The notes below the pieces were generated by a model, which saw only the letters and a program-made list of their open reading frames with translations, was not told where the DNA came from and ran no database searches. From positions 248,001-312,000 of the forward strand of contig NZ_CP039690.1 in NCBI RefSeq assembly GCF_005144885.1: a stretch of 64,000 nt of DNA, written 5' to 3'. Every line of letters starts with the position of its first letter. Position 1 is the first letter of the stretch. A program made the translations under genes and the position numbers. The stretch is from Phreatobacter stygius (GTDB lineage Bacteria; Pseudomonadota; Alphaproteobacteria; Rhizobiales; Phreatobacteraceae). Below, in pieces: positions 7,531-50,822 of this stretch.

Positions 7531-7547
7531 CCGGCAAGCCTTGCCGG
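7531..7547. promoter_or_regulatory. ftr-like palindrome between flgB and fliO
   Basis: A perfect 8-bp dyad CCGGCAAG-C-CTTGCCGG containing the shared core CGGCAA-N3-TTGCCG. The same core recurs before flgF, flgI, flgE and the fourth flagellin. It resembles FlbD-binding ftr sites of Caulobacter. No convincing sigma54 promoter was found near this copy. Confidence 0.5.
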
Positions 7548-7618
7548 GCTCGTTAACCTCAACATAGACTTAACGGGCCTGATTGCGCCCGCCGCCGGCA
7601 TGCATGGGATCGGTTCTG

Positions 7619-8926
7619 ATGAATTTCATATCCAATCTTCTCGGTCCCAATGCGCCGCTCGCGGCGACGTTCATAGTCGCCTTCGCTGTGGTCCTGGTGC
7701 TGATCGGGCTGATGACCTGGGTGATCCGGCTGATCCGCGGCCGGGGCCTTGGCATCGGATCGTCGGCGCGCGGCCGCCAGCCGCGCCTCGCGGTGCTCGA
7801 CTATGCCGATGTCGACGCCCGCCGGAAGCTGGTGCTGATCCGGCGCGACAATGTCGAACACCTGATCCTGCTCGGCGGACCGACCGACGTGGTGATCGAG
7901 AACAATATCGTGCGCGGCGTGCCGGTGCAGGCGAGCGCGCTGCGCGAGGCCGCCGCGGCACCGGTCAACGAACTGCCGCTGCCGCTGCCACCAGGCGAGG
8001 CGCCGTCGCGGCTCACCATGCGCGAGGCTGCCCGCCAGGCCGCCGGCGAGCCGCCGGCGCCGCCGCGGCCGGTCAATCTCGACAATCCGGCGCCGCCGCC
8101 AAGGCCTGAAGCAAGGCCCGAGCCCAGGCCTGAGGCAAGGCCGGAGCCAAGACCCGAGCCAAGACCGGAACCAAGGCCCGAACCGAGACCGGCGCCGCCG
8201 GTCGCGCAGCCCGCCCCGGCGCCCGTACCGGCACCGGCGATCCAGCCGAGCCGGGTCGAAACGACCCGGGTCGAGCCGAGCCGCGTCGAACCATCAAGGC
8301 TCGAGCCGGCTCGCCCGGCACCGCCGCCCCCGCCGCGGCCCGAACCGGCCCGGATGGAACCGCCGAGAGCGGCGTCCCCGGTTGCCGCCGCGGCACAGCC
8401 GATCGCGACGCCGCCGCTGCCGCTCAGACCCGCCAATGTCCAGCGGACCGACGCGCCGGCGACGCCCCCGGCCTCGGTCGCGACGCCAACCATCAAGGCA
8501 CCGCCCACGCCTCCTGCCCCGCCGGCCAGACCGTCGGCCGCACCGCCGGACGACATTGCCGCGCGCCTGGAAGCAGCGCTGCGCAAACCGATCGTGCCGA
8601 CCTCGGTCATGGCGCAGCGGCCAAACGAACAACGGCCGACCGAGCCGCGTGCGGCCGACCAGCGGCCGGCCGAAGCCCGTCCGGCCGAACCGAAATTGGC
8701 CAACGCGGCTGGCGCGGCGCCGCCGCAACCCGCGGCACCGTCGCGCGCCTCGACGCCTCCAGCCTCGGCTCCGGCTCCGGCTCCGGCAGCTGCCCCGGCG
8801 CAGGCACCGGCTCCGGCAAGCACGCCGCCCAAGGCACTCACGGCGTCGGAGAAATCGGTCTTCGACAGCCTGGAAGAGGAAATGGCGGCGCTGCTCGGCC
8901 GCGGTCCGGCGCCACCCAAGACCTGA
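7619..8926 (+). CDS. fliO: FliO-type flagellar export protein with long Pro/Arg/Ala-rich tail
   Basis: A 435-residue protein. Residues 1-110 look like FliO: a short N-terminus, one membrane helix (LAATFIVAFAVVLVLIGLM), then a small cytoplasmic domain with LVLIRRDNVEHLILLGGPTDVVIE. FliO helps assemble the FliP ring. Ordinary FliO is about 100-150 residues; here some 300 residues of low-complexity Pro, Ala and Arg follow, including PEPRPEAR repeats. A short conserved-looking end, SVFDSLEEEMAALLGR, closes it. The start at 7619 follows a GGGATCGG element. It precedes fliP by 112 bp, as expected for fliO. Confidence 0.75.
   Translation: MNFISNLLGPNAPLAATFIVAFAVVLVLIGLMTWVIRLIRGRGLGIGSSARGRQPRLAVLDYADVDARRKLVLIRRDNVEHLILLGGPTDVVIENNIVRGVPVQASALREAAAAPVNELPLPLPPGEAPSRLTMREAARQAAGEPPAPPRPVNLDNPAPPPRPEARPEPRPEARPEPRPEPRPEPRPEPRPAPPVAQPAPAPVPAPAIQPSRVETTRVEPSRVEPSRLEPARPAPPPPPRPEPARMEPPRAASPVAAAAQPIATPPLPLRPANVQRTDAPATPPASVATPTIKAPPTPPAPPARPSAAPPDDIAARLEAALRKPIVPTSVMAQRPNEQRPTEPRAADQRPAEARPAEPKLANAAGAAPPQPAAPSRASTPPASAPAPAPAAAPAQAPAPASTPPKALTASEKSVFDSLEEEMAALLGRGPAPPKT
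8098..8190 (+). repeat. PEPRPEAR-type codon repeat inside fliO
   Basis: About 90 bp of imperfect 6- and 12-bp direct repeats encode alternating Pro-Glu-Pro-Arg and Pro-Glu-Ala-Arg. The stretch lies in the disordered tail of the FliO protein and is in frame throughout, so length changes would not break the gene. Confidence 0.8.
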
Positions 8927-9038
8927 CGCCGACAGGATTGAATCCGGTAAAACCGGCCGCGCGCGACCGAACCCGGCGCGAGACCCGTCGCAGCACCTGT
9001 TAAGCTCACGCCAACGATTCGCGTGGGCGCGGGAAGCG

Positions 9039-9839
9039 ATGCAGCCTCAATCGACAGCACAGACCCCGGGCACGGCGCGCCGCATCGGCGTGCCGAAGTC
9101 CGTTGTGCTCACCTCCCTGGTGTCCTTGCTGGCCCTTGGCCTCGTCGTGCTGGCCGCCCGCACCGCCCAGGCCCAGGACGTCTCGATCAATCTCGGCCAG
9201 GGCGCCGGCGTCAACGAACGGGTCATCCAGCTGATCGGGCTGATCACCGTCCTGTCGGTGGCCCCCTCGATCCTGATCATGGTGACCAGCTTCGTGCGCA
9301 TCTCGGTGGTGCTGTCGCTGCTGCGCACCGCCATCGGCACCCAGACCGCGCCGCCCAATGCGGTGATCGTCGGCCTGTCCCTGTTTCTCACCGGCTTCGT
9401 CATGGCGCCGGTGTTCCAGCAGAGCTACGACACCGGCCTGAAACCCCTGATGGACAACCAGATCGAGATCCGCCAGGCGTTCGAGCGCGGCTCCGCGCCG
9501 TTTCGCGAGTTCATGCTGAAACATGTCCGCGAGAAGGACCTGGCGCTGTTCCAGGAACTGTCCAACGAGCCGGTGCCGGCGACGCCCCAGGAGGTGTCGT
9601 TTCGCGTGCTGGTGCCGTCCTTCATGATTTCCGAACTCCGCCGCGCCTTCGAGATCGCCTTCCTGCTGTTCGTGCCCTTCCTGGTGATCGATCTCGTCGT
9701 CGCCTCGGTGCTGATGTCCATGGGCATGATGATGCTGCCGCCGGTGACCGTCTCGCTGCCGTTCAAGCTGATCTTTTTCGTGCTGGTCGACGGCTGGAAC
9801 CTGGTCGCCGGCAGCCTCGTCCGCAGCTTCGGGACTTAG
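9039..9839 (+). CDS. fliP: Flagellar export gate protein FliP
   Basis: A 266-residue membrane protein of the FliPQR core. It has a cleavable-looking N-terminal signal ending in AARTAQAQD, as FliP often does. Characteristic segments follow: SFVRISVVLSLLRTAIGTQ, a periplasmic loop, FMISELRRAFEIAFLLFVPF and MGMMMLPPVTVSLPFKLIFF. The start at 9039 is preceded by GGGAAG. It follows fliO on the same strand, divergent from flgB. Nothing unusual apart from separation from fliQ and fliR, which is common here. Confidence 0.95.
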   Translation: MQPQSTAQTPGTARRIGVPKSVVLTSLVSLLALGLVVLAARTAQAQDVSINLGQGAGVNERVIQLIGLITVLSVAPSILIMVTSFVRISVVLSLLRTAIGTQTAPPNAVIVGLSLFLTGFVMAPVFQQSYDTGLKPLMDNQIEIRQAFERGSAPFREFMLKHVREKDLALFQELSNEPVPATPQEVSFRVLVPSFMISELRRAFEIAFLLFVPFLVIDLVVASVLMSMGMMMLPPVTVSLPFKLIFFVLVDGWNLVAGSLVRSFGT

Positions 9840-9876
9840 CGGCGCTTCGGGTAGCGTCCGGCAGAAGCATCAATGA

Positions 9877-10261
9877 ATCAACCCGCTCCCGAACGGGCTA
9901 CGACATTCACACATCTCCAGAACATGCGGCCTTTCAATGCCTTGCACGGGGCTCAGTCGTCCTTCGAGGCTCGCGCAAGGGCGCTCGCACCTCCAGCGCA
10001 AAAGCGAGCTTTTGCGCGGGGATCAGGGGGTGTGGTGTATTGCGTTGATGTTGCAGGTGAAAATCGGACGGCGACGCGCGCGCCAGGCGCCGCCCTTGAT
10101 GCCAAACCCTACGCTCCTCATCCCGACGCAAAAGCTTCGCTTTTGCGTGGAGGTGCGAGCTCTTGCGAGCCTCGAAGGACGGCTTTCCCGTCGTGCAAGG
10201 CATTGGAAATACTGCCGTTTCGAGATGTGCGAATGCAGTAGCCCATTGGGAGAGGGTTGAT
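9877..10261. repeat. 385-bp imperfect palindromic intergenic element
   Basis: The whole stretch between fliP and the next gene is one long imperfect inverted repeat centred near 10069. Matching landmarks occur at both ends and inward: ATCAACCC, the CATTCACACATCT/CATTCGCACATCT pair, CAATGCCTTGCACG, TCCTTCGAGGCTCGC, CTCGCACCTCCA and CGCAAAAGC...GCTTTTGCG. Tracts like CTTCGAGGCTCGC are common in dispersed palindromic repeats of Bradyrhizobium-like genomes. No credible protein is encoded; open frames here are by-products of the palindrome. Confidence 0.8.
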
Positions 10262-10333
10262 CGCCCGCTCCACGCCCGGCCTCAAAAGCCCCGCGCCATC
10301 AAGGCTCTCGCCACATCCCCTTAAATCAAATCG

Positions 10334-10810
10334 TCAGGATGTCCTGGGCTCGCTGCGGCAGACCGGACCGCCGGTCCGGCTGAGCACGTCCTGGTAGGGG
10401 AAGGTCCGGCGCATCAGCTGCAGGCGATCGCCAGGCTCGCCGACCAGCGACAGGGTCAGCGTACCCTGTGGCATCAGCCGGTAGACATGGCCGCGCACCG
10501 CATGCCGGTCGGCGCCGATGCGCCGGTCGAAGTGACCGGTGACCTGTCTGCCGAACGGCCCGGAATCGGGCGTGCCCGGGCTGGCGCTGAGCCGCATGGC
10601 GAGGTCGCCGCAGGTCGAGCCCGGTCCGACCCGGATGCCGCACCAGCCCTCGCCGCAGCGGGTCAGGTCCACGACGAAGCCATATTTGCCGCTGGACCAG
10701 CGTCCGGCCAGCTCTTCCGAGGCCGCCGGCTCGGTCCAGGGCGCAGTCCTGGCCGGCTCGGCGCGGGCAATGGTAAGCTGCAGCATGAGCGCGCCAGCGA
10801 CCGCCCCCAT
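10334..10810 (-). CDS. Secreted small protein, DUF2147-like
   Basis: A protein of about 158 residues with an N-terminal signal (MGAVAGALMLQLTIARAEPA) and a mature part with ELAGRWSSGKYGFVVDLTRCGEGWCGIRV, which resembles the GxW...CG pattern of DUF2147-type periplasmic proteins. Function is unknown. The start is uncertain: an ATG at 10879 adds 23 residues, but its codon overlaps the start codon of the divergent gene in the tetranucleotide CATG. I prefer 10810, which puts the start directly at the hydrophobic signal. Confidence 0.6.
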   Translation of the reverse strand: MGAVAGALMLQLTIARAEPARTAPWTEPAASEELAGRWSSGKYGFVVDLTRCGEGWCGIRVGPGSTCGDLAMRLSASPGTPDSGPFGRQVTGHFDRRIGADRHAVRGHVYRLMPQGTLTLSLVGEPGDRLQLMRRTFPYQDVLSRTGGPVCRSEPRTS

Positions 10811-10877
10811 TGCCGCGGCGACCCCGCCCCTGAGCCTGCCGGTCGATGGATCGAAAGCCCGGGCGCCAGCGCGCTTC

Positions 10878-11495
10878 ATGGTCAAGCGGATCGTCCTCGC
10901 GGTCATTGTCGCTGTCCTCGTTCTACCGCTCGGCGCGGTCGCTGTCATGACCGCCGCCGGCTGGCTGGCGCTGCCGTATGAACTGGCCGTGGTGGACGAG
11001 CGGCTGCCCGGCCTGTTCCGTTTGCATATGGCCGCCGCCGCGGCCGCTCTCGTCCTGGTGCCGGTCGCCCTGCTCGTCCGCCGCCGGCCGGCCCTTCACC
11101 GGATCGTCGGCCGCGCGGCCGGCATCGCCATCCTGATCGCCGGCACCTCCGCCATACCGGTGGCGCTGTCCGGTCTCGCCTCGGCCATGGCGGTGGCCGG
11201 TTTCATCGCCCAGGCGGTGACCTGGCTGGTCCTCATGTCGCTTGGCTTTGTCGCGATCCGCCGGCGCCGGGTTCACTGGCATGCCCGCGCGATGGTCGCC
11301 GTGGCCGCGGTCACCTCGGCGGCGATCTGGCTGCGGCCGGCCATGGTGCTGGTGCGCGAGGTGCTGATGCCCCACGCCGACTGGTCCTTCGATACGGCTT
11401 ATGCGGTCGTCGTCTGGGCGTCCTGGCTGCTGCCGCTCACCGCGGTCGCGGCGGTCATGGGCCTTGGCCGCTGGCCCGGTCGAGCCCGGATCTAG
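10878..11495 (+). CDS. DUF2306-like membrane protein
   Basis: A 205-residue integral membrane protein with about six hydrophobic segments. The pattern of LHRIVGRAAGIAILIA after the third helix and HWHARAMVAVAAVTSAAIW before the fifth resembles DUF2306, whose members carry conserved His and Arg residues at helix ends. The role is unknown. It is convergent with the TPR gene, and the two stop codons overlap in the tetranucleotide CTAG at 11492-11495, leaving no room for a terminator. Confidence 0.7.
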   Translation: MVKRIVLAVIVAVLVLPLGAVAVMTAAGWLALPYELAVVDERLPGLFRLHMAAAAAALVLVPVALLVRRRPALHRIVGRAAGIAILIAGTSAIPVALSGLASAMAVAGFIAQAVTWLVLMSLGFVAIRRRRVHWHARAMVAVAAVTSAAIWLRPAMVLVREVLMPHADWSFDTAYAVVVWASWLLPLTAVAAVMGLGRWPGRARI

Positions 11496-14400
11496 CCCTG
11501 GCGCGGTGCCCGGTTGGCCTCCGCCGACCCGGGCGCGGGGGTTCCCGGACGGCGCTGCTGGCCCGGCGCTTCCGACGGATAGCGCTCGCGGTAGTTCTGC
11601 AGGAAGGCATCGAGCGTATCGCGGTCGGCGATCGACCGGGCGATCTCGCGATATTCGACGCCGCGCGCCTCGATTGGCGCGGTCACCACGTCGAAGGCGC
11701 GGGCATCGACCGTGGCGGTCATCAGCGGCCGCCAGCGGCCACGCAGCCGGTCGAGGCCGAGCGTCTCGTCGCTCAGCGCATAACCGATGGCTGCGCGCAA
11801 CAGATGCCGGCGCTCGTCGTCGTTGAGCGCCGCGCCGCCGGTGCGCCGGGCCGAGACCCATTTCTCGCTCTGTTCGGCGGATTCGCGATAGCGCTGCGCC
11901 GACCACAGGATGTCGGCGCGCAGCATTTCCGATTCCAGGCTCTTGACTTCGCCGAGCAGCTCGAGCGCCTGGTCCGGCCGGCCGGCATCGGCGAGCGCAC
12001 GCGCCTCCAGGAGATAGCGCTGCACCCGCAGCTCCTCGGGCAGGTCGGCAAGCCGGGTGGTCCGCAGCGCCTGCAGGGCGGCGGCGGGCTTGCGGTTCAT
12101 CAGATGCACCACGGCAAGGCGCGCGGCGACCTGCGAGCGCGCCGCGCCGGTCAGCCGCCGGTCGACCTGGTGCTGCAGCAGGGAAGCGGCCTGGTCGAGC
12201 AGGTCCATATTGGCCAGGCGATCGGCCAGCCGCCGGATGATCTCGTCGCCGCGGCGGCCCTGGGGCGTCATGTCGCGGAAGTCGTAATAGAGCGCCAGCG
12301 CGTCCACCGGCTTCATCGCATCGGCGTTGCCGTCGAGGAACAGCGCTTCGAAATGGCGCGCCACATCGTCCTGCATGCCGCGCACCGATTCCGACCGCGG
12401 GAACACCCGCATGGCGTTGCGCATGGTCGAGAAGGCGTCGCGGAACCGCCCCTGCTCGGCATAGAGCTTGGCCAGCAACGCCAGCGTGCGCGCCTCGACA
12501 TCGTCGCCACGCCAGGCGTAGCTCATCACTTCCAGCTCTTCGGTGGTCGCCTTGCCGTCGATCTCGCCGAGCCGGTAGCGCAGCGCCAGTTGCCGCTGGT
12601 CGGCATCCGCCCTGACCGGTTCGTCGGGCCCGCGGCCGGCGCGCGCATAGGCGCCCAGCGCCTCGCGCTCCTGACCCTGGGCCTCGGCGACCCGGCCGCG
12701 CAGCAGCGCGAATTGCTGTTCGGCGGAAGCGGGAACGCCGAGCTCCTGCAATTCGTCGAGACGCCTCGCCGCCCGGTCGACCGCGCCGGTATCGAGCGCC
12801 GCCCCGATGGCGCCGGTCAGGATGTTGCGGGCGAACGGTGCCGGCAAGGTGCCGACCGGCGTCTCCGCGGCCTCGAAGGCTTCATGGGCTTCACGCGCGC
12901 GGCCGTCGAGCGCCAGTGCCGTCGCTCGCCAGGACGCGATGTCGGGCGAGGCCGAGATCGCCGGATGAGCCAGGTCGCGCAAGGCATCGGCCGGCCGGTG
13001 CAGCATCACCGAGACGACGCCGCGCAGGCCCTGAATCGAGCCGTCCTCGGCCACCCGGCGATCCTGGCGCAGGATCGTCTCGAGCACCGCGCGGGCTTCC
13101 GGCCAGCGCTGCTGGGCCATGTAGAAACGCACCAGATCGAGCCGTCGCGGCGTGCGCTGGGTGTCGTGCACGCTGGCCGCCGCGGTGACCAGGTCGGCCT
13201 CGCGCTCGCGGAATGGCGCCTTTTCGTCGAGCGCCCACAATTCCAGATCGAAGGCGATGGCGCGCGGCCGCCGGACCGAGCGGATCGGCGGCTGCGGCCG
13301 GGCATTCTCGGCGGTCAGGACCAGGCCGCGGGGCCGGCCGACCGTGACGCGGTCGCCCTCGATAGTCACCGCCAGGTCGTCGGCCAGCGGCTGGAACACC
13401 AGGCCGTGGCTGCCGGCCAGCGCATTGAATTCGACCATCTCGTGGTTGCGCAGGAACGAGCGCGCCGGCCCCGAGCCGGTGACCACGATGAGCTGGTCGC
13501 CGGCCAGCGGATCGCTCAGCCGGTGCACCGAGCCGGCGCCGGCGAATTCAGCCGATGCGATCAGCCGGTCGCCGGTGCCGGTCGCCCGCAGCAGCGCCAC
13601 CGGGCGGGGCGGCTCCAGCACGGCGTCGGCCAGCGTCACGATCCAGGCGGCGCCGTCGCGGCCGGTCGAGGCCAGGCTCTGCTTGTCGAGGCCAATGCGG
13701 ATCGCCGTGCCGCCGCGCGAGCGCGAGGCATCGACCGAGGTGAAGGCGCCGATGGCGTCGGCCTGCAGGCCGGCAAGGTCGATCTGCTCGCGCGCATCGA
13801 ACACCAGCCACAGCGTATCGCCGCGCTGGAACACCGCGCCCGGCGTTTCCTGATTGAACGGCACGAGGATGCGAATGGTGCCGCCGGCCCGGCGGGCCTG
13901 CAGCATGACCGGTCCGGTGCGGGCGGGAGCCGCGGCGGCCGGCGGCGCGACCGGGCGGGCCGGAGCGGCCGGTTCGGCGGCGAGCGGCGGCACCGGCGCG
14001 GTCTCGACGCCGGCCGGCGCCGGCGCCGGAATGACCTCGGCGACGACAGGCGGGCGAACCTCGTTGCGGCCTGTCGCCAATCGCGGCGCCGGCGCGGCCG
14101 GATCCAGGATCGGGATCGGCAGGCCCGACGGCGTCGACAGGCCGCTGCCCGGCAGGTTGGTCACCGCGGCCCCGGCCGGCGGGCGCTGGTCGTTGCGCGC
14201 CACCGGCACGGCGCCGGCGCCGGCGCGCGGATCACGCATGCTGACATCGACCACATAGGTCCCCTCCTCGCGGAAGGCCCTGACGTCGGCATCGGGCGAA
14301 ACGGTCATGCGGATGACCAGTTCGTCGTTATTGGTGGTCGCCTCGATGTCGGAGACGAAATGCGGCAGGCCCTCGCGGGTCTGGCGCAGGTCGGAGGTGA

Positions 14401-17657: not shown

Positions 17658-18161
17658 TCACTGGACGATGATTTCGCGGAACAGGACGGCGTTCACGCGG
17701 GCCGGATGGACTGCGGTATTGACCCTGCGGGTCAGTTCGTCGCGCAGGCGGAAAATGCCCGCCGACCCCTCGATATCCGAAGGCCTGACCTCACGCAGAT
17801 AGAGCTGGAAGGCATCGATGACCCGCGGCATGACCGGCTTGATCTGGTCGGCGGTCTTGGCGTCGGCGACCTCGAGCGCCACCCGGACGCGCAGATATTG
17901 CGCGCGGTCCTGGCCGACCGACAGGTTGACGGTCATTTCCGGCAGGTCGAGGAAGGTCACCGGCGTCGGGGCTTGCGACAGCTCGGCATTGCGCGCCTCG
18001 GCGCGCGGCTTCATGACGAAATACCAGCCGCCGCCGCCGGCGATGACCAGTGCCGCCGCGCCGGCGATCAGCATGATCTTCTTCTTCGAGCCGCCGGCCG
18101 CGGCCTCGCCCTCGTCGCCGTCTTCGACGGCGGCATCGGCCTTTTTCGGTTTCATTGCCAT
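17658..18161 (-). CDS. fliL: Flagellar basal body-associated protein FliL
   Basis: A 167-residue single-pass membrane protein that supports the stator around the basal body. A basic N-terminus is followed by a helix at about residues 31-52, then the periplasmic domain with FLDLPEMTVNLSVGQDRAQY and the C-terminal VNAVLFREIIVQ. First gene of the operon fliL-fliM-DUF6468-motE-like-TPR. The upstream region is shared with flgF and contains a CtrA-like box and an ftr-like palindrome. Confidence 0.94.
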   Translation of the reverse strand: MAMKPKKADAAVEDGDEGEAAAGGSKKKIMLIAGAAALVIAGGGGWYFVMKPRAEARNAELSQAPTPVTFLDLPEMTVNLSVGQDRAQYLRVRVALEVADAKTADQIKPVMPRVIDAFQLYLREVRPSDIEGSAGIFRLRDELTRRVNTAVHPARVNAVLFREIIVQ

Positions 18162-18208: not shown

Positions 18209-18223
18209 TTAACGGGACGTTTA
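18209..18223. promoter_or_regulatory. Degenerate CtrA-like box between fliL and flgF
   Basis: TTAA-CGGGACG-TTTA matches the TTAA-N7-TTAA pattern with one mismatch and is followed by a further GTTAAC at 18229. It lies 48 bp upstream of fliL, in the same relative position as the perfect box before flgB. Confidence 0.4.
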
Positions 18224-18237: not shown

Positions 18238-18252
18238 CGGCAAGATTTGCCG
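18238..18252 (+). promoter_or_regulatory. ftr-like palindrome upstream of flgF
   Basis: CGGCAA-GAT-TTGCCG, a 6-bp dyad with 3-bp spacer, 98 bp (centre to GG) upstream of the sigma54-type promoter of flgF. FlbD binds comparable sites about 100 bp upstream of sigma54 promoters in Caulobacter. Confidence 0.6.
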
Positions 18253-18341
18253 GGTCGTTCGGGCCGCTCCGGCGCTTTCTGCCGGGCTCATGGTTACCCA
18301 AATATCACGATAAGTGGTTGATATTGCTTGAACAGGCCAGT

Positions 18342-18358
18342 TGGCACGGCTCCTGCGA
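18342..18358 (+). promoter_or_regulatory. Sigma54 -24/-12 promoter of flgF
   Basis: TGGCACG-GCTC-CTGCGA matches the sigma54 consensus TGGCACG-N4-TTGCA with GG at 18343 and GC exactly 10 bases later. It lies 125 bp upstream of the flgF start. Transcription would begin near 18368. Confidence 0.7.
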
Positions 18359-18482: not shown

Positions 18483-19262
18483 ATGGAGAATATCTCTCTC
18501 GTCGGCCTCTCGCGGCAGGTCGCCCTGCAGCGGGAGCTGGACGTCATTGCCAATAATCTCGCGAACTTGAACACCACCGGGTTCAAGGGCGACGAGGTCG
18601 TGTTCCAGGAGTTCATCTCACCGACCGCCCGCGACGACACCTTTCAGCGCGGCGCCGACCGGCGGATGTCGTTCGTCTGGGACCGCGCCACCGCGACCAA
18701 TCTCGGCCAGGGACCAATGGAGTCGACCGGCAATTCGCTGGATGTCGGGCTCGGCGGACGCGGTTATTTCGTCGTCCAGACCCCGGACGGCGAGCGCTAC
18801 ACCCGCAACGGCTCGTTCGAGATCAACGCCCAGGGCCAGCTGGTCACCAAGCAGGGCTACCAGGTGCTCGGCGACAACGGCCCGATCGCCTTCGACCAGT
18901 CCGATACCGGCATCACGATCACCCGCGACGGCACGATCAGCGTGATCGGCAACAACGCCACCAACCAGCCGGCCGGCCAGCGCGGCCGGTTGCGCGTGGT
19001 CGACGGCAATACGCCGCGCGCCATGGAAAAGGCCGGCGACAACCTGTTCACGCTCAGGGGCGGCGCCCAGGTCGCCAACCTGCCGCCGGCCAATGTCGAC
19101 CTGCGCCAGGGCTATATCGAAAAGTCCAACGTCACCCCGGTGCTCGAAATGTCCCGGATGATCGAGGTGACGCGCGCCTATACCGCGCTCGCCTCCAGCA
19201 TCGAGCGCCACGACCAACTCCGCCGCGATGCGATCCGCTCGCTCGGCAACCCGACAAGCTGA
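18483..19262 (+). CDS. flgF: Flagellar basal-body rod protein FlgF
   Basis: A 259-residue proximal rod protein. The N-terminal rod motif LDVIANNLANLNTTGFKGDE, the central GYFVVQTPDGERYTRNGSFE and the C-terminal helix VLEMSRMIEVTRAYTALASS are all present. First gene of flgF-flgG-flgA-flgH, with a sigma54-type promoter and an ftr-like site upstream, an arrangement also known for Caulobacter flgF. Confidence 0.96.
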   Translation: MENISLVGLSRQVALQRELDVIANNLANLNTTGFKGDEVVFQEFISPTARDDTFQRGADRRMSFVWDRATATNLGQGPMESTGNSLDVGLGGRGYFVVQTPDGERYTRNGSFEINAQGQLVTKQGYQVLGDNGPIAFDQSDTGITITRDGTISVIGNNATNQPAGQRGRLRVVDGNTPRAMEKAGDNLFTLRGGAQVANLPPANVDLRQGYIEKSNVTPVLEMSRMIEVTRAYTALASSIERHDQLRRDAIRSLGNPTS

Positions 19263-33750: not shown

Positions 33751-34191
33751 TCAGGATACGGCCCGCGCCGCCTCACGCTTGGCGATCTCGACCTGGGCCC
33801 TCAGGTCGATCTCGGCGAGCACGCCGTCGAGCCCGTCATCGCCCGAAGCCTCGAGTTTCGCCGCGGTCAGGCCGCGCAGCTTCAGGAGCACCGCCGGCAT
33901 CGGCTCGCCGGACAGGAGCGCCAGCTTCAGGTCGTCGAGCAGGCCGAGCGCATCATGGCCGCGCTTCATCGCCCGCCGGCGTTTCTCGCGCCGGTCGTCG
34001 GGCATCATGCCCTGCACGGCAAGCAAGGTCTCGAGCCCGGCTGCGGCCATGCCCGGCCGCGCGGCCTCGGCCCGCGGCGTGTCGCTTTTCGCGCCGCCTG
34101 GCAGTTCGAATGCGGATCGGGGACGATCGGTACGCGCGGCAACCTGCGTCGACTGGACAGCGCCCAGCGGCGGCGTCGTCGGGATGCGCAT
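33751..34191 (-). CDS. fliX: Flagellar assembly regulator FliX
   Basis: A 146-residue protein. In Caulobacter FliX couples basal body assembly to activation of FlbD, the sigma54 activator of class III genes. The helical C-terminal part LDDLKLALLSGEPMPAVLLK and DLRAQVEIAKREAARA match the family. Start at 34191 has GGGGGAG before it; the longer frame to 34335 has no such site. It is divergent from flgI, and its upstream region carries a perfect TTAA-N7-TTAA box and an ftr-like palindrome. Confidence 0.88.
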   Translation of the reverse strand: MRIPTTPPLGAVQSTQVAARTDRPRSAFELPGGAKSDTPRAEAARPGMAAAGLETLLAVQGMMPDDRREKRRRAMKRGHDALGLLDDLKLALLSGEPMPAVLLKLRGLTAAKLEASGDDGLDGVLAEIDLRAQVEIAKREAARAVS

Positions 34192-34268: not shown

Positions 34269-34283
34269 TTAAGAGGTCGTTAA
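34269..34283 (-). promoter_or_regulatory. CtrA-like box TTAA-N7-TTAA before fliX
   Basis: TTAAGAGGTCGTTAA is a perfect match, 78 bp upstream of the fliX start, with a further TTAA half-site at 34249. In Caulobacter fliX is also a CtrA target. Confidence 0.6.
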
Positions 34284-34287: not shown

Positions 34288-34302
34288 CGGCAAAAGCTGC
34301 CG
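34288..34302 (+). promoter_or_regulatory. ftr-like palindrome upstream of flgI
   Basis: CGGCAA-AAG-CTGCCG, extended to CCCGGCA...TGCCGGG, lies 5 bp beyond the CtrA-like box and 94 bp upstream (centre to GG) of the flgI sigma54-type promoter. Confidence 0.6.
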
Positions 34303-34387: not shown

Positions 34388-34404
34388 TGGCACGCGACGT
34401 GCGA
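34388..34404 (+). promoter_or_regulatory. Sigma54 -24/-12 promoter of flgI
   Basis: TGGCACG-CGAC-GTGCGA fits the sigma54 pattern with GG at 34389 and GC after exactly 10 bases. The flgI ATG lies 32 bp downstream. Confidence 0.65.
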
Positions 34405-34435
34405 GGGACGCGCCAAGAGGCCCCGAGGTCACCCC

Positions 34436-38916: not shown

Positions 38917-38931
38917 CTAATGAGGCGTTAA
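38917..38931 (-). promoter_or_regulatory. CtrA-like box of flagellin copy 1
   Basis: On the minus strand TTAA-CGCCTCA-TTAG, 67-81 bp upstream of the start codon. The box and spacing are shared with copies 2 and 3. Confidence 0.5.
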
Positions 38932-40638: not shown

Positions 40639-40653
40639 CTAAGACTGCGTTAA
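40639..40653 (-). promoter_or_regulatory. CtrA-like box of flagellin copy 2
   Basis: On the minus strand TTAA-CGCAGTC-TTAG, 66-80 bp upstream of the start. Conserved beyond the box: GTTAACGC..TC.TTAGAA also occurs in copy 3. Confidence 0.5.
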
Positions 40654-42362: not shown

Positions 42363-42385
42363 TCCGTTTTATCGGCGGCGGATTT

Positions 42386-42400
42386 CTAAGACCGCGTTAA
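42386..42400 (-). promoter_or_regulatory. CtrA-like box of flagellin copy 3
   Basis: On the minus strand TTAA-CGCGGTC-TTAG, 69-83 bp upstream of the start, with a further GTTAAC at 42409. Confidence 0.5.
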
Positions 42401-43308: not shown

Positions 43309-43323
43309 CGGCAAATCCTGCCG
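43309..43323 (+). promoter_or_regulatory. ftr-like palindrome upstream of flagellin 4
   Basis: CGGCAA-ATC-CTGCCG, 170 bp upstream of the start at 43493. No GG-N10-GC promoter with a good -24 element was found at the expected 90-100 bp downstream, so its target is unsettled. Confidence 0.5.
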
Positions 43324-43492
43324 GTTAACTATTGCCGTGTCGCAGCAGTCACAGGCCGCCAACTTAAGCCCTTCAATTCCCGATGTTTTTTCGCCGAAAC
43401 GGCCAGCATTAACTTTTGAGTAAGATTAACGGGTAAGAGTGCTCCGTGGATGGCGCGCGATAGATTCGCCGCACCGCGACCGGGGGCATCTC

Positions 43493-44740
43493 ATGAGCGA
43501 CATCGTTCTATCGAAAGGCATTCGCAGCAACCTGCTGTCGCTGATCGATACCGCTGGCCTCCGCGACCAGACGCAGAACCGCCTGTCCACCGGCAAGCGC
43601 GTCAACACCGCGCTCGACAATCCCGGCAATTATTTCTCGGCGAGCCAGCTCAACGGCCGCGCCGCCGATATCACCAACCTGCTCGACGGCATCGGCAACG
43701 CGGTGCAGACCCTGCAGGCCGCCGATAACGGCATCCGTTCGATCATCAAGGTGGTCGAGAACGCCCAGGCCATCGCCCGCCAGGCGCAAGGGTCGGCCTC
43801 GACGCAAGCCCGCCTCAACGGCGTGACGCCGAAGCTCGCCGGTGTGCCGACCGCCCTGACCGCCCAGACCAGCCTCTCCTCCTACGGCTTCACGGTCGGC
43901 GACACGATCACCCTGTCCACCGGCACCACGGTCAATGCCACCACGCTGACCATTGCCGCCGGCATGACGGTCGGCGATCTCGTCAACGCCATCAACAACA
44001 ACACCAGCGCGGCTGCGGCCACCGGCGCCGGCGTCCTGATCGGCACCGGGACCGGCGCCGATGCGCGGGCTTCGCTCACCCCCGACGGTCGCCTGCTGAT
44101 GGAAGCGACCGGCGTCCAGCCGCTGCAGATCACGGTGACGCCATCGGGCACCTCCACTGCCCCGGCAGTGGCCGCGGCGCTCGCCGGCATCGGCTTCGAC
44201 GCGACCAATTCGAGCCAGCCGGCGGGCAAGGCCAACCAGACCCGCACCGACATTTCCGTGCAGTTCGGCGAGCTGCGCCGCCAGATCGACCAGCTGGCCA
44301 AGGATGCCGGTTATAACGGCGTCAACCTGCTCAATGCCGACACGCTGCAGGCAATGTTCAATGAGAAGCAGTCGTCGTCGCTGACCATCACCGGCGCGCG
44401 CATTTCCACCGACCGCGATCTCGCCATCAAGCCGGCCTCGAACAATTTCCAGACCGACAAGGACATCAACGATGCCCTCGCCGACCTGACCTTTGCGATG
44501 AACAAGCTGAGGGCCCAGTCGAGCGCCTTCGGCTCCAACCTGGCACTGGTGCAGATCCGCCAGAAGTTCACCCAGGAAATGGCCAATACGCTGAAGACCG
44601 GCGCCGACAACCTGACGCTCGCCGACATGAACGAGGAAGGCGCCAACATGCTGGCGCTGCAGACCCGCCAGCAATTGTCGACCCAGGCCCTGTCGCTGGC
44701 CAACCAGGCCGACCAGGGCGTGCTGAGACTGTTCAGCTAA
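43493..44740 (+). CDS. Divergent flagellin (fourth copy)
   Basis: A 415-residue flagellin-family protein. D0/D1 ends are recognisable (LSKGIRSNLLSLIDTAGLRD; LLDGIGNAVQTLQAADNGIR; NLTLADMNEEGANMLALQTR) but clearly diverged from the three tandem copies, and the middle is short. It lies on the opposite strand with an ftr-like site upstream and its own terminator, and lacks the leader hairpin of the others. It may be a minor or hook-proximal flagellin under different control. Confidence 0.92.
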   Translation: MSDIVLSKGIRSNLLSLIDTAGLRDQTQNRLSTGKRVNTALDNPGNYFSASQLNGRAADITNLLDGIGNAVQTLQAADNGIRSIIKVVENAQAIARQAQGSASTQARLNGVTPKLAGVPTALTAQTSLSSYGFTVGDTITLSTGTTVNATTLTIAAGMTVGDLVNAINNNTSAAAATGAGVLIGTGTGADARASLTPDGRLLMEATGVQPLQITVTPSGTSTAPAVAAALAGIGFDATNSSQPAGKANQTRTDISVQFGELRRQIDQLAKDAGYNGVNLLNADTLQAMFNEKQSSSLTITGARISTDRDLAIKPASNNFQTDKDINDALADLTFAMNKLRAQSSAFGSNLALVQIRQKFTQEMANTLKTGADNLTLADMNEEGANMLALQTRQQLSTQALSLANQADQGVLRLFS

Positions 44741-44768
44741 AGGTACCCTTTCTTCCAGCCGGCCGAAT

Positions 44769-44799: not shown

Positions 44800-44904
44800 A
44801 GGCGCCGTTCACCGCGTCGGGCGGGCATCGGCGCAGCGCGCCCCGTCGCCGTCGCGCATGTGATAAGCTCTTGCCTTGTTCCGAATCGCACACGGAGAGG
44901 CCGG

Positions 44905-45318: not shown

Positions 45319-45652
45319 AATCACCGCGACGGCCAACCCGCGCGAACTGGAAGCAAGCCTCCTTCTGAAGGCCGCTGCCCGCATCCAGACGCTGAAGGAC
45401 CAGTGGCCCGGCGCCAATGGCGAGCTGAGCCAGGCGCTGAATTATAATCGCAAGCTGTGGACCGTGCTGACCACCTCGGCGACCAAGGCGGACAATCCCC
45501 TGCCGCTGCCGATCAAGAACAACATCGCCAATCTCGGCATGTTCATCTTCAGCCGCAGCCTGGATATCGAGATCGAACCGGCGCCCGAGAAGCTCGCCGT
45601 GCTGGTGTCGATCAACCGCAACCTGGCGGCGGGGCTATCGGGACGGGGGTGA
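45281..45652 (+). CDS. flaF: Flagellin biosynthesis regulator FlaF
   Basis: A 123-residue protein with the FlaF pattern AAAYASTARITATANPRELE, LLLKAAARIQTLKD, and NNIANLGMFIFSRSLDIEIE. FlaF works opposite to FlbT and promotes flagellin synthesis or secretion. The start lies inside flbT, because the conserved N-terminus itself is in the overlap. No separate promoter is seen. Confidence 0.92.
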   Translation: MHHGAAAYASTARITATANPRELEASLLLKAAARIQTLKDQWPGANGELSQALNYNRKLWTVLTTSATKADNPLPLPIKNNIANLGMFIFSRSLDIEIEPAPEKLAVLVSINRNLAAGLSGRG

Positions 45653-45673
45653 GAGAAGGTGCGCCCTCAACTG

Positions 45674-45696
45674 ACCCTCTCCCAAAGGGAGAGGGT
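45674..45696. terminator. Hairpin between convergent flaF and flgL (family 2 end sequence)
   Basis: ACCCTCTCCC-AAA-GGGAGAGGGT is a perfect 10-bp stem 22 bp after flaF and 44 bp after flgL on the other strand. It equals a single end of the family 2 element at 43075. It has no long T tract, so terminator function is only probable. Confidence 0.55.
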
Positions 45697-45739
45697 TAGT
45701 TTGGTGGCGCGCGGCCCCATTCGCCACTCGCCACTCGCC

Positions 45740-47323
45740 TCAGAGATAATTGACCAGGGTCAGCTTCGACAGCATCGAGCTGGTCTGGTAGCTCGCCTGC
45801 ATCATGGTCTGCAGCGCCACGATCTGGGCGGCGAGTTCCTCATTGTTGACCCCGGTCACATCGCTCAGCAGCCCGGTCAGCATGGCGTCGGTTTCCTTGT
45901 GCCGCGCCTTGGCCGCGTCGGCATTGGAATTGGCCGAGGCGATCTCGATCTGGATCGAGGTGACGGTCTGCGCCGCGCCCTGGCCCGACAGCCCACTGGC
46001 GACCCGGCTGGCCAGCGCCTGGTAGCGCTCTTTCGCCAGCGTGTCGTCGTTCTGGAAGGTCACCGCGCTCGCCACCGCGAGATTCTGGATGGTCGCGCGC
46101 AGGGCCTCCTCGTCGGCGCGCGCGCCATAGGTCACCGACACCGCGGTATCGACCTGGGCCGCCGCGGTCGCCCTGGGATCCCCGGAGATCCGGTCGCCCT
46201 GATACCAGCGCAGTGTGCGGTTCTCGGCGTTGGCGGGCGTGTCGAAGGCGACCGCATCGGCCATGGTGCCGGAGACGCCCGGCACCAGCCGCTTGGCGAC
46301 GCCCGGTTGCACCGCCGGCGGGCCGGCCAGGACCGCGGCATTGGTCTCGCCCTTGAAAAAATCCTCGCCGGCCTCCGTTGCGGAAGCCGCGGCGAGGCCG
46401 GTCGAGACCAGCTTGGCCAGGCCATCGCCCAGCGCGCCGCGCATATTGGCGAGCGTCTCGGTCTGGGTCGCGCCAATGCGGAACTGGCCGGGGCCGACCG
46501 TCGGGCTGTCGGCGGCGACCGCCGTCAGGGTGATCCGCTCGGTCGAGCCGTCGGGCAGCTTGAAGCCGATGGTCAGGTTCTCGCCGGCCTTGGCGGTGCC
46601 GGCGCCGGTGGCGATCGACAGCGAGGCCGGCGGTCCTGCCGTCATGGTCGCGGTGGCGCCGCCGACCGCGCCGGTGACATTGTCGAGCTTCAGCCCGAAG
46701 GCATGGGCGCCGTCCTCGGCAAGCGTGATCGGGCTCGCCGCGGCGCCCGACAGGGTCAGCCGGCCGGTGGCGCCGGCGTCGCGCTCGGGCGAGGCCGCCG
46801 ACGAGCCGAGATCAGCCTGCATGCGCTCGAGCAGGGCCTGCTTGAAGCCGTCCTTGGTGCCTTGTCCGGCCATGATCGCGGCGCTGTCGAGCACCGGCGG
46901 CGTGCCGGTCTGGCGGCCGCCGAACAGGTAGCGCCCGCCATCGTCGCTGTTGAGCATGCCGATGACCGCATCCAGGCTGTTGCTCGCCGCCAATTGCCCG
47001 ACGGTGCGGCCCGAGGCGAGCGTGAAGTCGATCGAGGTCAGCGAGGTCTTGGTGCTGGCGACCGTCTTCTGCACGCCGCTCAGCGCGGTATCCATGATCT
47101 TGATGCGGGTCTGCACCAGCGAGATGTTCTGCTGGTAGGACGCGACCTGGCTGCGCGAGCCCTGGAAGCTCAGAGCCAGCGAACGGTCGAGCCCGAGGCC
47201 GGCATAGGTCTCCGACTTCTTGCCCGAGCCGAGCTGGCGCTGCAGCTCGGCAAGCTGGTTCTTCATCTGCAGGAAATCGGTCCCGCCGAAGCCCGGAATG
47301 ATGCCGGAAGTGCGGATGGCCAT
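45740..47323 (-). CDS. flgL: Hook-filament junction protein FlgL
   Basis: A 527-residue flagellin-like junction protein. The N-terminal coiled coil (FLQMKNQLAELQRQLGSGKK) and C-terminal helix (YQTSSMLSKLTLVNYL) fit FlgL. It is longer than the 300-350 residues of many FlgL proteins because of a large middle region (about residues 180-400). It follows flgK with 9 bp between, in the operon flgE-flgK-flgL. A flagellin identity is unlikely given this context. Confidence 0.88.
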   Translation of the reverse strand: MAIRTSGIIPGFGGTDFLQMKNQLAELQRQLGSGKKSETYAGLGLDRSLALSFQGSRSQVASYQQNISLVQTRIKIMDTALSGVQKTVASTKTSLTSIDFTLASGRTVGQLAASNSLDAVIGMLNSDDGGRYLFGGRQTGTPPVLDSAAIMAGQGTKDGFKQALLERMQADLGSSAASPERDAGATGRLTLSGAAASPITLAEDGAHAFGLKLDNVTGAVGGATATMTAGPPASLSIATGAGTAKAGENLTIGFKLPDGSTERITLTAVAADSPTVGPGQFRIGATQTETLANMRGALGDGLAKLVSTGLAAASATEAGEDFFKGETNAAVLAGPPAVQPGVAKRLVPGVSGTMADAVAFDTPANAENRTLRWYQGDRISGDPRATAAAQVDTAVSVTYGARADEEALRATIQNLAVASAVTFQNDDTLAKERYQALASRVASGLSGQGAAQTVTSIQIEIASANSNADAAKARHKETDAMLTGLLSDVTGVNNEELAAQIVALQTMMQASYQTSSMLSKLTLVNYL

Positions 47324-47332
47324 GGTCGGTCC

Positions 47333-49234
47333 TCACATCTGCCGGAGAATGTCGAACATCTCCTTGACCGCCGACATGACGCGCGCATTGGCGCCATAGG
47401 CGGTCTGGAGCTGGATCAGCATCGACATCTCGGTATCGATATTGACGGCGGAGCTGGCGTCGTAGCGGGCCTGCAACTGGCTGATCACCACCTGCTGGCC
47501 TTCGTTGAGCTGCTTGGCGACCGCCGCCTCGTTGCTCTGGGTCGAAATGACGTTGCGGGTATAGGACAGGAGCGAGCCCTGGAACGGCGTCCCGGCCGAG
47601 CCGATGCCGGCCTCGGGTGAGAAATAGCGGGTGGCGCTGTTCAGCGCGTTGCTCAGGAAGTTCGGCCGCGTCGCGTCCGAATCCTGGGTCCGGGGGCTGG
47701 TCTGCATCACCACCAGGCCGCTCGGATCGGCCTTCAGCGCGGCATTGATGTCGATCCGGCCGGCAAGCCCGGTGATCTGCGACCCCGAGGCGGTGATCCG
47801 GTCGGTATAGAGCCCGCCGGGCGCGGTATTGTCGATGAAGAACGGCAAGGCGGGCGCGCCGCCATTGATCGACTGGGCGGTGACATTGGCCTTGGCCTGG
47901 CCGACCGAGGCGCCGCCGGCGACCGTCGGGTCGGCCAGCACGCGCAGATTGCCGCCCGACACCGACACCGCGAAGGCGCCCGCCGGCGCGCCGGCGCCGG
48001 CCGCCCAGCTGTCGATCGCCGCCTGCATCTGGCTGGCGTGGCCGGCGGCCGAATTGCCGGTCAGCCGGAACACCTTGTCGTTCGGATCGGCCGACATGCC
48101 GTCGGTGATCGGCACCGCGGCGTCGTCGACCCGCTTGAAGGTGAATTTCTGCTTCACCCCGTTGACGGTGGCTTCCACCGTCACGGTGTCGCCATCCGAC
48201 AGGCCGGGCCCGAGCGGCGTGTCGAAACCGGTGGTCGGGCCCGGGCCCGGAACGGTCACCGCGCTGGAGCTCGACGAGGTTCCGAGCGCCTGGGCCAGGC
48301 CGCCGGCGATCTGGTCGAGCTGGTCCTGGGCCGCCACCAGCGACTTGTCGCGCAGTTCCAGGAGCGCGCCGATCTTGCCGGACTTGAACACGCCCTGGGC
48401 GACCAGGTCGACGGTCGAGCCGCCGATCGCCGCGGTAATGGTGCCGACCGAGCGCTTGGCCGGATCCGGATCATATTGATTGGCCGGGCCGATCAGGCCG
48501 CGGGCGTCGAAATTCAGGGTCGGCGACGTGCCGCTGAGCAGCACGAAGCCGTTGCCGCCATAAAGCTGCACGCCGTCGCTGGAATCATAGGCCACACGCA
48601 CGTCGACATATTGCGAGATCTGGTCGACCAGGTCGTCGCGCCGGTCCAGGAGCCCGGCGCGCGAGGCGTCCGAGGTGCTGGTGGTGCGCAAGGTCTCGTT
48701 CATCGACTGCAGGTCGCCGAGCAGCCCGTTGAGCGCCTTGGTCGCGTCCGCCAGGCCCTGTTCGGCATCCTGGCGCATGCCCTGGATGGTGCTGCTGAGC
48801 GACCGCAGCGACTGGGTCAGCACGGTCGCCGAATTGATCACGCCGGCGCGCGCGGTGGCGCTTTCCGGCGAGGTCTGCAGGGTCTGGAACGCGGTGGAGA
48901 AATTGTTCATCACCGTGTCGAGCGCGCGCGCCGAACCCGGCGCGCCGAAGGCCTGGTCGAGCCGGCCCATGAAATTCGCCCGGGTCGAGGCGTAATAGCC
49001 GTTCGACCGTTCGGAGATCAGCTGGCGCTGGACGAAGGCGTCGAATTCACGCCGGACGCTGCCGGCCTCGACCCCGCCGATGCCGGTGCCCGACAGCATC
49101 GAGATCGGGTCGATGGTCTTGCGGGTATAGGTCGAGTTTCCGGCATTGGCGATATTGGCGCCGGTCAGGCTCATCGCGGTCGAGGTGAACCGCAATCCGG
49201 ACAACGCGTTGTTGAGGGCACTCGACAGGGCCAT
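47333..49234 (-). CDS. flgK: Hook-filament junction protein FlgK
   Basis: A 633-residue junction protein. The N-terminus ALNNALSGLRFTSTAMSLTG with ANIANAGNSTYTRKTI and the C-terminal LIQLQTAYGANARVMSAVKE are typical axial helices. A long middle region with Ala/Gly-rich domains lies between. It starts 39 bp after flgE. Confidence 0.94.
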   Translation of the reverse strand: MALSSALNNALSGLRFTSTAMSLTGANIANAGNSTYTRKTIDPISMLSGTGIGGVEAGSVRREFDAFVQRQLISERSNGYYASTRANFMGRLDQAFGAPGSARALDTVMNNFSTAFQTLQTSPESATARAGVINSATVLTQSLRSLSSTIQGMRQDAEQGLADATKALNGLLGDLQSMNETLRTTSTSDASRAGLLDRRDDLVDQISQYVDVRVAYDSSDGVQLYGGNGFVLLSGTSPTLNFDARGLIGPANQYDPDPAKRSVGTITAAIGGSTVDLVAQGVFKSGKIGALLELRDKSLVAAQDQLDQIAGGLAQALGTSSSSSAVTVPGPGPTTGFDTPLGPGLSDGDTVTVEATVNGVKQKFTFKRVDDAAVPITDGMSADPNDKVFRLTGNSAAGHASQMQAAIDSWAAGAGAPAGAFAVSVSGGNLRVLADPTVAGGASVGQAKANVTAQSINGGAPALPFFIDNTAPGGLYTDRITASGSQITGLAGRIDINAALKADPSGLVVMQTSPRTQDSDATRPNFLSNALNSATRYFSPEAGIGSAGTPFQGSLLSYTRNVISTQSNEAAVAKQLNEGQQVVISQLQARYDASSAVNIDTEMSMLIQLQTAYGANARVMSAVKEMFDILRQM

Positions 49235-49273
49235 GTCCCGTCACTCCTTGACGCCAGATATCAAGATCCGCGT

Positions 49274-50638
49274 TCAGCGGATCATGTTGATGGTTTCCTG
49301 GAGCATCGCGTTCGCCGTGGTGACGATGCGCGTGTTCGAGGCATAGGCCTGCTGCGTCACGATCAGCTTGGTGAACTCCTCGGAGATATCGACATTCGAG
49401 CCCTCGAGGCTGTTCGACGAGATCTTGCCGCCGCCGCCAAGAATGGGTGAGCCGGATTCGGCGGTCTCGCCGAAGGCGCCGCCATCCATGCGCTTCAGGC
49501 TGTTCTCGCCCTGGAAGGTGGCAAGCGGGATCTGGAACAGGTCGAGCGCCTGGCCATTGGTGTAGTTGCCGCGCACCCGGCCGGTATCGGTGATCGTCAC
49601 ATTGGCGAGCTTACCGGCCGAATAGCCGTTCTGGTCGATCGTGGTGACCAGCACCGAGCCGTCGGTGCGGGCATACTGGGAGATGCCGTTGCTGCCGATG
49701 TCGAGTTTGACATTGCCGACATTGACGCCGTTGACGGTCAGGTTCGAGATCGTCGGGCTGGTCGTCGGCGCGGTCATCTGACCGGTGCCATTAAAGGTGA
49801 AATCACTGCCGATGCGGGTCCAGGCCTCGGTGCCGGCACCGGAATTCGACTGGTAATAGGCGTTCCAGGTCGCCTCGACCGCCGGCGGACCGGCCGAAGC
49901 ATTGGCGGTCTTGGTCCAGCGCACCTGGACGTTGACCGGATTGCCGAGCGGGTCGTAGGCGGTGATCGAACCGCCGGAAACCGAGGACGCGACAAATTTC
50001 GCGGCGTCGCCCGGAACACTGCCATAGCTCGCCGCGCCAGCGGTCAGCGTCGGGTCGATCAGTTCGCTCCCCGCCACGGAGGCCTGGTAGCGGGCGGTGG
50101 CCGGCACCGAGGGCAGGCTCGCGCGGTAATTGATCGCCGAGGTCGACTTGGCCGGGATCACGTCATTGGTGATCTGGATCGCGGTCGGCGAGCTGCCCGA
50201 CGGGTTGCCGGTGGTCGGGTCGAGTTTCAGGCCGCGCAGGTAATAACCGGCGCCGTTGACCATGTAGCCATTGGCATCGACGGTGAAATCGCCGCGCCGG
50301 GTGTAATAATTAACATTGGAGAACACCGGCTGGTTGTCGAGCGAACCGGTCGACTGCTGGACGATGAAATAGCCGCTGCCATTGATCGCCAGGTTGGTAT
50401 TCACTCCGCTCGCCTGGACCTGGCCTTGGATCGTGTTGGTGGCGCGCGACTGCGCGGTCACCGAGCCGGCCAGTTCGCGCTTCGGCGCGCCGTCGGGGAT
50501 CAGGTCGACAAAACTGGTATCGATCCGTTTGAAGCCCGAGGTCTGCGAATTGGCGATATTGCCGGAGATATTCTCGAGCGCGTAGGACTGCGCGGCGAGA
50601 CCGCTGACCGCCGTGGTCATCGCACCGAAGATACCCAT
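49274..50638 (-). CDS. flgE: Flagellar hook protein FlgE
   Basis: A 454-residue hook subunit. Begins MGIFGAMTTAVSGLAAQSYA, with ENISGNIANSQTSGFKRIDT, and ends LIVTQQAYASNTRIVTTANA. The start at 50638 has GGAGG 7 bases upstream; the longer frame to 50659 does not. It leads flgE-flgK-flgL. A sigma54-type promoter and two ftr-like palindromes lie upstream, a late (hook) class arrangement. Confidence 0.96.
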   Translation of the reverse strand: MGIFGAMTTAVSGLAAQSYALENISGNIANSQTSGFKRIDTSFVDLIPDGAPKRELAGSVTAQSRATNTIQGQVQASGVNTNLAINGSGYFIVQQSTGSLDNQPVFSNVNYYTRRGDFTVDANGYMVNGAGYYLRGLKLDPTTGNPSGSSPTAIQITNDVIPAKSTSAINYRASLPSVPATARYQASVAGSELIDPTLTAGAASYGSVPGDAAKFVASSVSGGSITAYDPLGNPVNVQVRWTKTANASAGPPAVEATWNAYYQSNSGAGTEAWTRIGSDFTFNGTGQMTAPTTSPTISNLTVNGVNVGNVKLDIGSNGISQYARTDGSVLVTTIDQNGYSAGKLANVTITDTGRVRGNYTNGQALDLFQIPLATFQGENSLKRMDGGAFGETAESGSPILGGGGKISSNSLEGSNVDISEEFTKLIVTQQAYASNTRIVTTANAMLQETINMIR

Positions 50639-50709
50639 GACATTCCTCCCCCGGGCCAAACGGCCGATACCCTGCCGCGCTGCACTTGCATCGCTGTCGG
50701 CCCTGGCTC

Positions 50710-50725
50710 TGCAGCGGCCATGCCA
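50710..50725 (-). promoter_or_regulatory. Sigma54 -24/-12 promoter of flgE
   Basis: On the minus strand TGGCATG-GCCG-CTGCA matches the sigma54 consensus at all but two positions, with GG-N10-GC spacing. It lies 72 bp upstream of the flgE ATG. Confidence 0.7.
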
Positions 50726-50786
50726 AGGCAGGTGCGAGAGATTTCAATGTCTTAGCTGGTTAACCGGAGGTTGATTTGAGCCCGCC

Positions 50787-50822
50787 CGGCAAGATCGGTT
50801 GCCGGTCCGGCAAATTCTGCCG
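50787..50822 (-). promoter_or_regulatory. Paired ftr-like palindromes upstream of flgE
   Basis: CGGCAA-ATT-CTGCCG at 50808-50822 has the standard 3-bp spacer and its centre is 91 bp from the GG of the flgE promoter. A second dyad CGGCAA-N6-TTGCCG at 50787-50804 has a wider spacer. FlbD sites in Caulobacter often occur in pairs. Confidence 0.6.

Follow-up and report, generated by a model that had tools for sequence, protein, structure and literature searches.

A recurring inverted repeat in a 64-kb stretch of the Phreatobacter stygius genome (the window; positions 248001-312000 of the single 7,354,671-base contig G000:C1, 67% GC) is the subject of the present study. This dyad, CGGCAA-N3-YTGCCG, occurs there five times in exact form, never inside a predicted gene and always next to flagellar ones. 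Our observations as a whole are best explained if the dyad is a predicted binding site for the flagellar activator FlbD, which very probably works in the manner proposed below. A Caulobacter-type FlbD regulon, in what is a new lineage for it, appears well supported from the sequence. It provides a binding-site model for FlbD outside Caulobacter that is open to testing, and it suggests that a flagellar assembly checkpoint can be traced through non-coding DNA across a bacterial class. The most interesting part of the result is a spacing rule, by which the dyad tends to stand whole helical turns away from a sigma54 promoter and perhaps also from a CtrA box.

The dyad was matched seven times in the window, counting both strands, as against 0.06 ± 0.31 times (largest 2) in 100 dinucleotide shuffles. 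The five copies listed in the preliminary description are all exact and, according to the calls of our own simple gene caller (neighbours named by Pfam), all intergenic. Three of them precede later flagellar genes: the copy at 18238-18252 lies between fliL (minus strand, 17658-18155) and flgF (plus strand, 18483-19262), that at 34288-34302 between fliX (minus) and flgI (plus), and that at 50808-50822 upstream of flgE (minus, 49274-50638), its other neighbour being an AAA ATPase gene. Each is paired with a sigma54-like promoter, which we scored as matches out of 12, measuring distances between the centre of the dyad and the first G in the -24 GG. The values described previously hold exactly, namely 98 bp for flgF (18342-18357, plus), 94 bp for flgI (34388-34403, plus), and 91 bp for flgE (50710-50725, minus, read from 50725). 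Three of the five window dyads thus have the placement of later-gene sites, with a sigma54 promoter some 100 bp downstream. On its own, a sigma54-like site is nothing unusual in the window, where 26 have at least 9 matches and 8 at least 10, among them one at 34415 (minus strand), not far from the flgI promoter; therefore, it is the pairing with the dyad that matters. The compound pattern dyad-N78-108-TGGCAY..GC occurs at three places in the whole 7.35-Mb genome, before flgF, flgI, and flgE, and at none in the control. Over 41 genomes, P. stygius included, it gave 40 matches against 5 in the control, with at least one in 18 of the 41; compound places were assigned to genes for P. stygius alone.

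Conservation upstream of flgI was followed at two depths. The FlgI protein of P. stygius is 98% identical to that of one Hyphomicrobiales metagenome-assembled genome and 88 to 93% identical to those of the next seven (five titled Phreatobacter, one Proteobacteria isolate PHREA1, one Rhizobiales), with Bosea following at 78%. Of 80 named flgI loci, 79 had at least 250 bp upstream and were used; many are close kin (many Bosea, Methylobacterium, and Phreatobacter). The dyad, allowing two mismatches, precedes flgI in 73 of the 79, and in all 73 it pairs with a sigma54-like site at 50 to 140 bp: 91 to 94 bp (15 loci), 102 to 106 (53), 112 (2), and 116, 85, and 61 (one each). While a spacer of 3 was found in 73 loci, other spacers of 0 to 10 gave 3 to 13, and 298 permuted half-sites gave a mean of 3.1 and a maximum of 29. 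A weight matrix, which is GC-rich, was then built from the 56 distinct sites of these loci. In the window it scores at least 7 at 13 places, 7 of them intergenic, and at least 9 at 9 places versus 4 in the reversed window.

Across the class, 114 Alphaproteobacteria were sampled at about one per family. Of these, 69 had FlgI; after removal of four whose matches were short and partial, 65 remained, with FliX present in 58 and an FlbD model match at E ≤1e-110 in 56. The flgI upstream regions numbered 60, from 59 of the 65 genomes (P. stygius itself and five with split matches were left out), and a matrix score of at least 10 was called a dyad. Among genomes with FlbD at 500 bits or more, 33 of 49 carry the dyad before flgI, as opposed to none of the five that lack both FliX and an FlbD of that strength (Fisher p = 0.006). 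Dyad presence thus follows FlbD/FliX across class genomes.

Both flbD and rpoN, for which the preliminary description had advised a search, are encoded in P. stygius. A single rpoN was found (one PF04552 match, 226.2 bits). FlbD lies at about 1272955-1274334 (minus) of the contig, scores 802.9 bits with NCBIfam NF050807 (cut-off 750), and carries GAFTGA. By gene order and NCBIfam names, flbD is the last gene of fliF-fliG-fliH-fliN-flbD; in Caulobacter, too, flbD stands at the end of the fliF operon. We picked 20 of the 56 class genomes that have FlbD, and the order fliF-fliG-fliN-flbD holds in all 20, with fliH detected in 18. The partner FliX, placed at 33751 by the earlier reading, is indeed encoded there (33751-34191, minus; PF10768, 102.6 bits, cut-off 25, 3.1e-29), and five NCBIfam FliX models also match it, all below their cut-offs. 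The FlbD receiver domain falls slightly below its Pfam cut-off (29.6 vs 30.2) and starts LLIVGT in place of the acidic pair usual in receivers. These features fit control by FliX rather than phosphorylation. Such control is described for FlbD in passages of PMC3096577 and likewise of PMC7064773; a contrary view, that FlbD is phosphorylated by an unknown kinase, appears in a passage of PMC6180460.

Considering these elements together, FlbD, an NtrC-family activator gated by FliX, would bind the dyad. At flgF, flgI, and flgE, FlbD bound 91 to 98 bp upstream would contact sigma54 RNA polymerase by looping, and would in this way switch on rod, ring, and hook genes after the early basal body has been built. 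At early promoters (of the fliF operon, fliX, fliL-fliM, flgB/fliP, and fliI), a site of this type has CtrA-box-like repeats or TTAA half-sites nearby. This arrangement suggests that FlbD probably dampens early genes, its own operon included. Between fliX and flgI, and between fliL and flgF, one site separates an early operon from a later one and could act as a two-way switch. At the fliF operon, a matrix site (15.5) lies 54 bp before the fliF start codon, an ftr4-like place, and adjoins TTAACTCCCTGGTAA, which by its sequence is a CtrA-like repeat; of the 20 class genomes picked from the 56, 14 have a matrix site of at least 9 no more than 400 bp from fliF. As a separate observation, a second matrix site (17.0; L033:16758, G000:C1 about 1278757) stands approximately 96 bp ahead of flhA, a gene divergent from the fliF operon.

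The system shares with the FlbD/FliX/ftr regulon of Caulobacter crescentus an flbD gene ending the fliF operon, FliX, an ftr4-like site at fliF, FlbD-type sites that stand about 100 bp from sigma54 promoters, and rod, ring, and hook targets. The likeness to the Caulobacter ftr sites is one of placement and gene context. In Caulobacter, according to parts of PMC3930126 and PMC3096577, FlbD activates later genes and represses fliF via ftr4; FlbD binding sites mapped there by Fumeaux et al. are cited in a portion of PMC12421884. Five loci titled Bradyrhizobium carry the dyad and sigma54 module at 104 to 106 bp. FlbD-FliX of Bradyrhizobium diazoefficiens was reportedly the subject of work by Dardis et al. 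in 2021; that species, like ours, represents a Hyphomicrobiales lineage with FlbD and FliX.

Looping of the activator to the sigma54 polymerase predicts helical phasing of the two sites. In the first class sample, 33 dyad-sigma54 distances (59 to 139 bp) cluster near 60, 71, 82, 103, and 113 to 118. A second class sample comprised 57 regions, drawn from matches listed among 231 FlgI genomes of 387 (56 from genera new to the sampling plus one more, many from families already sampled), and gave 31 distances. At a fixed period of 10.5 bp, phasing as strong was seen in 357 of 20000 jittered sets for the first sample, in 7 for the second, and in 0 for both together; a rougher calculation for the first sample yielded 6 of 5000. 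Therefore, the dyad-to-sigma54 distance tends to vary by whole DNA-helix turns class-wide, as replicated in the second sample.

Several observations weigh against the reading of the dyad as an FlbD site of this kind. The best-fitting period was nearer 11 than 10.5 (best of those tried, 10.75 to 11.5), and the flgF spacing of 98 bp falls between the main modes. Since flgF and several other spacings misfit, we rejected a strict 10.5-bp rule. No sigma54-like site of at least 9 of 12 matches lies within 300 bp of the window dyads at 7532 and 43309, the best reaching 8. Among the 49 FlbD genomes, 16 show no dyad at threshold; 11 of these have a region GC below 50%, and one (G040) had only 309 bases of region. 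Dyad calls in the 49 were 29 of 33 at a region GC of at least 55% and 2 of 13 below 50%. A further genome with FliX and an FlbD match of 470 bits (G031) is also without the dyad. Conversely, four genomes with FliX and no FlbD found (all FlbD-model matches ≤342 bits) have the dyad in every case, and a fifth FliX genome (G049, 329 bits) was outside the fetched regions; all five are drafts. Most exact copies of the motif outside the window sit inside genes. Genome-wide there are 21 exact places with 27 strand matches (16 for the reversed pattern): 5 in the window, 14 inside predicted genes, one in the fliI/ctrA interval, and one flanked by genes whose products have Gfo/Idh/MocA and solute-binding domains. 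Although five or more of 21 in 64 kb has a Poisson probability of 1.5e-6, the motif was first noticed in this same window. Bare-motif genome counts were hence rejected as proof of a regulon, given that most copies are intragenic. The preliminary description had proposed asking whether the hits of a genome scan gather upstream of flagellar genes; this holds for the dyad with its sigma54 promoter (flgF, flgI, and flgE only) and fails for the bare motif. Its broader proposal of a Caulobacter-type FlbD hierarchy is sustained by flbD, rpoN, FliX, the compound sites, and the 33/49 versus 0/5 contrast, and weakened by the two of five sites lacking sigma54 promoters and by main flagellin genes lacking both elements.

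These observations bear on two other origins of the dyads. Chance GC-rich palindromes or terminator-like hairpins would account for the 14 of 21 exact copies within predicted genes in DNA whose window is 67% GC; the shuffles, the spacer and permuted half-site controls, the recurrence across families, and the conservation make this exceedingly improbable. Binding by a different sigma54 activator could be argued from the seven strong Sigma54_activat matches of the genome, FlbD included, the others of which we presume to be NtrC-, NtrX-, or TacA-like, and from the four FliX-positive genomes mentioned above, which have the dyad with FlbD undetected. Nevertheless, we regard it as quite unlikely that such a protein rather than FlbD is the binder, as all compound sites of P. 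stygius are at flagellar genes, dyad presence tracks FlbD/FliX, the NtrC consensus differs from the dyad, and the NtrC-family protein L028 is without GAFTGA, as we take NtrX-like proteins to be. L028 and L022 are two adjacent NtrC-family genes (G000:C1 about 6.666-6.670 Mb).

A second element, a CtrA-type box (TTAA-N7-TTAA, at most 1 mismatch, within 60 bp of the dyad in the named loci), clearly neighbours the dyads. In the window the box TTAAGAGGTCGTTAA (34269-34283) stands 19 bp, centre to centre, from the flgI dyad on the fliX side. Among the 79 named loci, 68 have the box, all at -18 to -21 from the dyad (46 at -20) and on the side away from flgI, toward fliX in the window. None of four other AT motifs matched in these loci; a box variant with spacer 6 scores 60, GTAAA being a frequent reading of the right half. 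The genus has a second compound site, by position that of fliL/flgF, and the eight loci examined show the box there at -29 or -30. In the two class samples, 17 boxes were found in 17 of 37 dyad-bearing regions and 17 in 16 of 35. The class offsets were -20 (2), -27 to -31 (15), -40/-41 (2), -47 to -56 (9), -61/-62 (4), -77, and +82.

Phasing of the CtrA box relative to the dyad is possible, short of established. We tentatively propose, on a likelihood somewhat below even, a composite element in which the dyad is held in helical register with both the sigma54 promoter and the CtrA box, kept across Alphaproteobacteria with distances drifting by whole turns; it would imply direct CtrA-FlbD interplay at the early-to-middle switch, with the Phreatobacter circuit also closing on fliI/ctrA. 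It is a real possibility, though one we would not call probable, that FlbD binds the dyad and the CtrA-box neighbourhood has no function, promoters being packed between divergent genes and the spacing reflecting descent. In keeping with this, the named loci are close kin, CtrA-offset phasing was weak in the second sample (1313 of 20000 jittered sets as strong, compared with 9 in the first), and the offsets of that second sample from -47 to -56 show no gap greater than 3. Against a functionless neighbourhood stand offsets near 20, 30, and 61-62 that recur across different families, the 33 of 34 class boxes lying on the side away from flgI, and the combined phasing (3 of 20000). A scan of 387 class genomes for exact TTAA-N7-TTAA followed within 0 to 30 bp by the dyad was set aside as giving too few cases, not cleanly phased: 9 genomes, with offsets of 17, 19, 27 (three, one family), 30 (two), and 45 (two), against 1 in the control; the 17-, 27-, and 45-bp cases favour mere packing.

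The passages of PMC6180460 concerned describe CtrA control of divergent fla2 flagellar promoters in Rhodobacter sphaeroides, a CtrA site shared by flgB and fliO in Caulobacter, and the absence of FlbD from the Rhodobacteraceae shown there. P. stygius resembles the fla2 system in having CtrA sites between divergent early flagellar operons, and differs in that its CtrA-type boxes adjoin FlbD-type dyads. Among the titles and abstracts listed in literature searches, none dealt with phased CtrA-FlbD elements or Phreatobacter flagellar regulation, which is weak evidence of novelty.

The flagellin genes set our genome apart from Caulobacter, whose six flagellin genes are RpoN-dependent (from the part of PMC3930126 dealing with them). 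None of the three main flagellin genes of P. stygius has a dyad upstream, and none has a sigma54-like site of at least 9 matches; each has a CtrA-like box (CTAA-N7-TTAA on the plus strand; 38917-38931, 40639-40653, and 42386-42400) 66 to 69 bp before the start. This suggests that filament genes may be under direct CtrA control. The named loci contain 93 flagellin-like starts; a CtrA-like box lies within 250 bp of 68 of them, while 8 have a dyad and 1 has a sigma54-like site. The fourth flagellin-family gene (43493-44740, plus), followed by flbT and flaF, does have a dyad, at 43309-43323 with its centre 177 bp upstream, and no sigma54 site. A CtrA-like box (43409-43423, 1 mismatch) lies 100 bp from this dyad, where the sigma54 promoter would be expected, and the distance stays at 99 to 100 bp in six near relatives that were chosen because they carry the dyad.

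Also unlike Caulobacter, P. stygius has an extra exact dyad (G000:C1:883327) between fliI (TIGR03498, 656 bits, cut-off 587) and ctrA (NF045991, 423.7 bits, cut-off 350). It recurs 92 to 154 bp from fliI in 11 of 11 genus genomes with fliI found, our own included (a twelfth had no fliI match and is outside the count), and is absent from all 9 other loci in which ctrA is the neighbour; a 9.0 matrix match was found at one of three more loci without ctrA. This genus-specific site could tie flagellum assembly back to the cell-cycle regulator; as it lies about 600 bp from ctrA, control of ctrA is a conjecture.

The remaining window dyad, at 7532-7546, lies between flgB (minus, 7009-7413; Flg_bb_rod at 19.7 bits, slightly below its 20.7 cut-off) and an open reading frame (ORF; 7583/7604-8926) ahead of fliP (9039-9839), with CtrA-box-like repeats at 7460-7474 (0 mismatches) and 7559-7573 (1 mismatch). 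The ORF from 7583 encodes 447 aa at the place expected for fliO and matches no family in Pfam or NCBIfam. Near the fliL/flgF dyad are a CtrA-like box (18209-18223, 1 mismatch) and a weaker second dyad (18270-18284). A matrix hit of 17.4 at 62669-62683, just ahead of the gene for a universal stress protein (62199-62633, minus) and beside a DUF697 gene, has no sigma54-like site of at least 9 matches within 200 bp, and its membership of the regulon is uncertain. Tandem dyads are not claimed: although single genomes do show pairs 19 to 21 bp apart, the only offsets in the aggregate profile over 75 named loci were 18 (10), 19 (3), and -13 (4), and over 37 class regions no offset reached 3. The wider second copy reported at 50787, beside the flgE dyad, is present as read from the sequence (50787-50804, CGGCAA-N6-TTGCCG). 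The role of this inverted repeat is uncertain, and a similar copy is visible in the compound match of another genome (G116).

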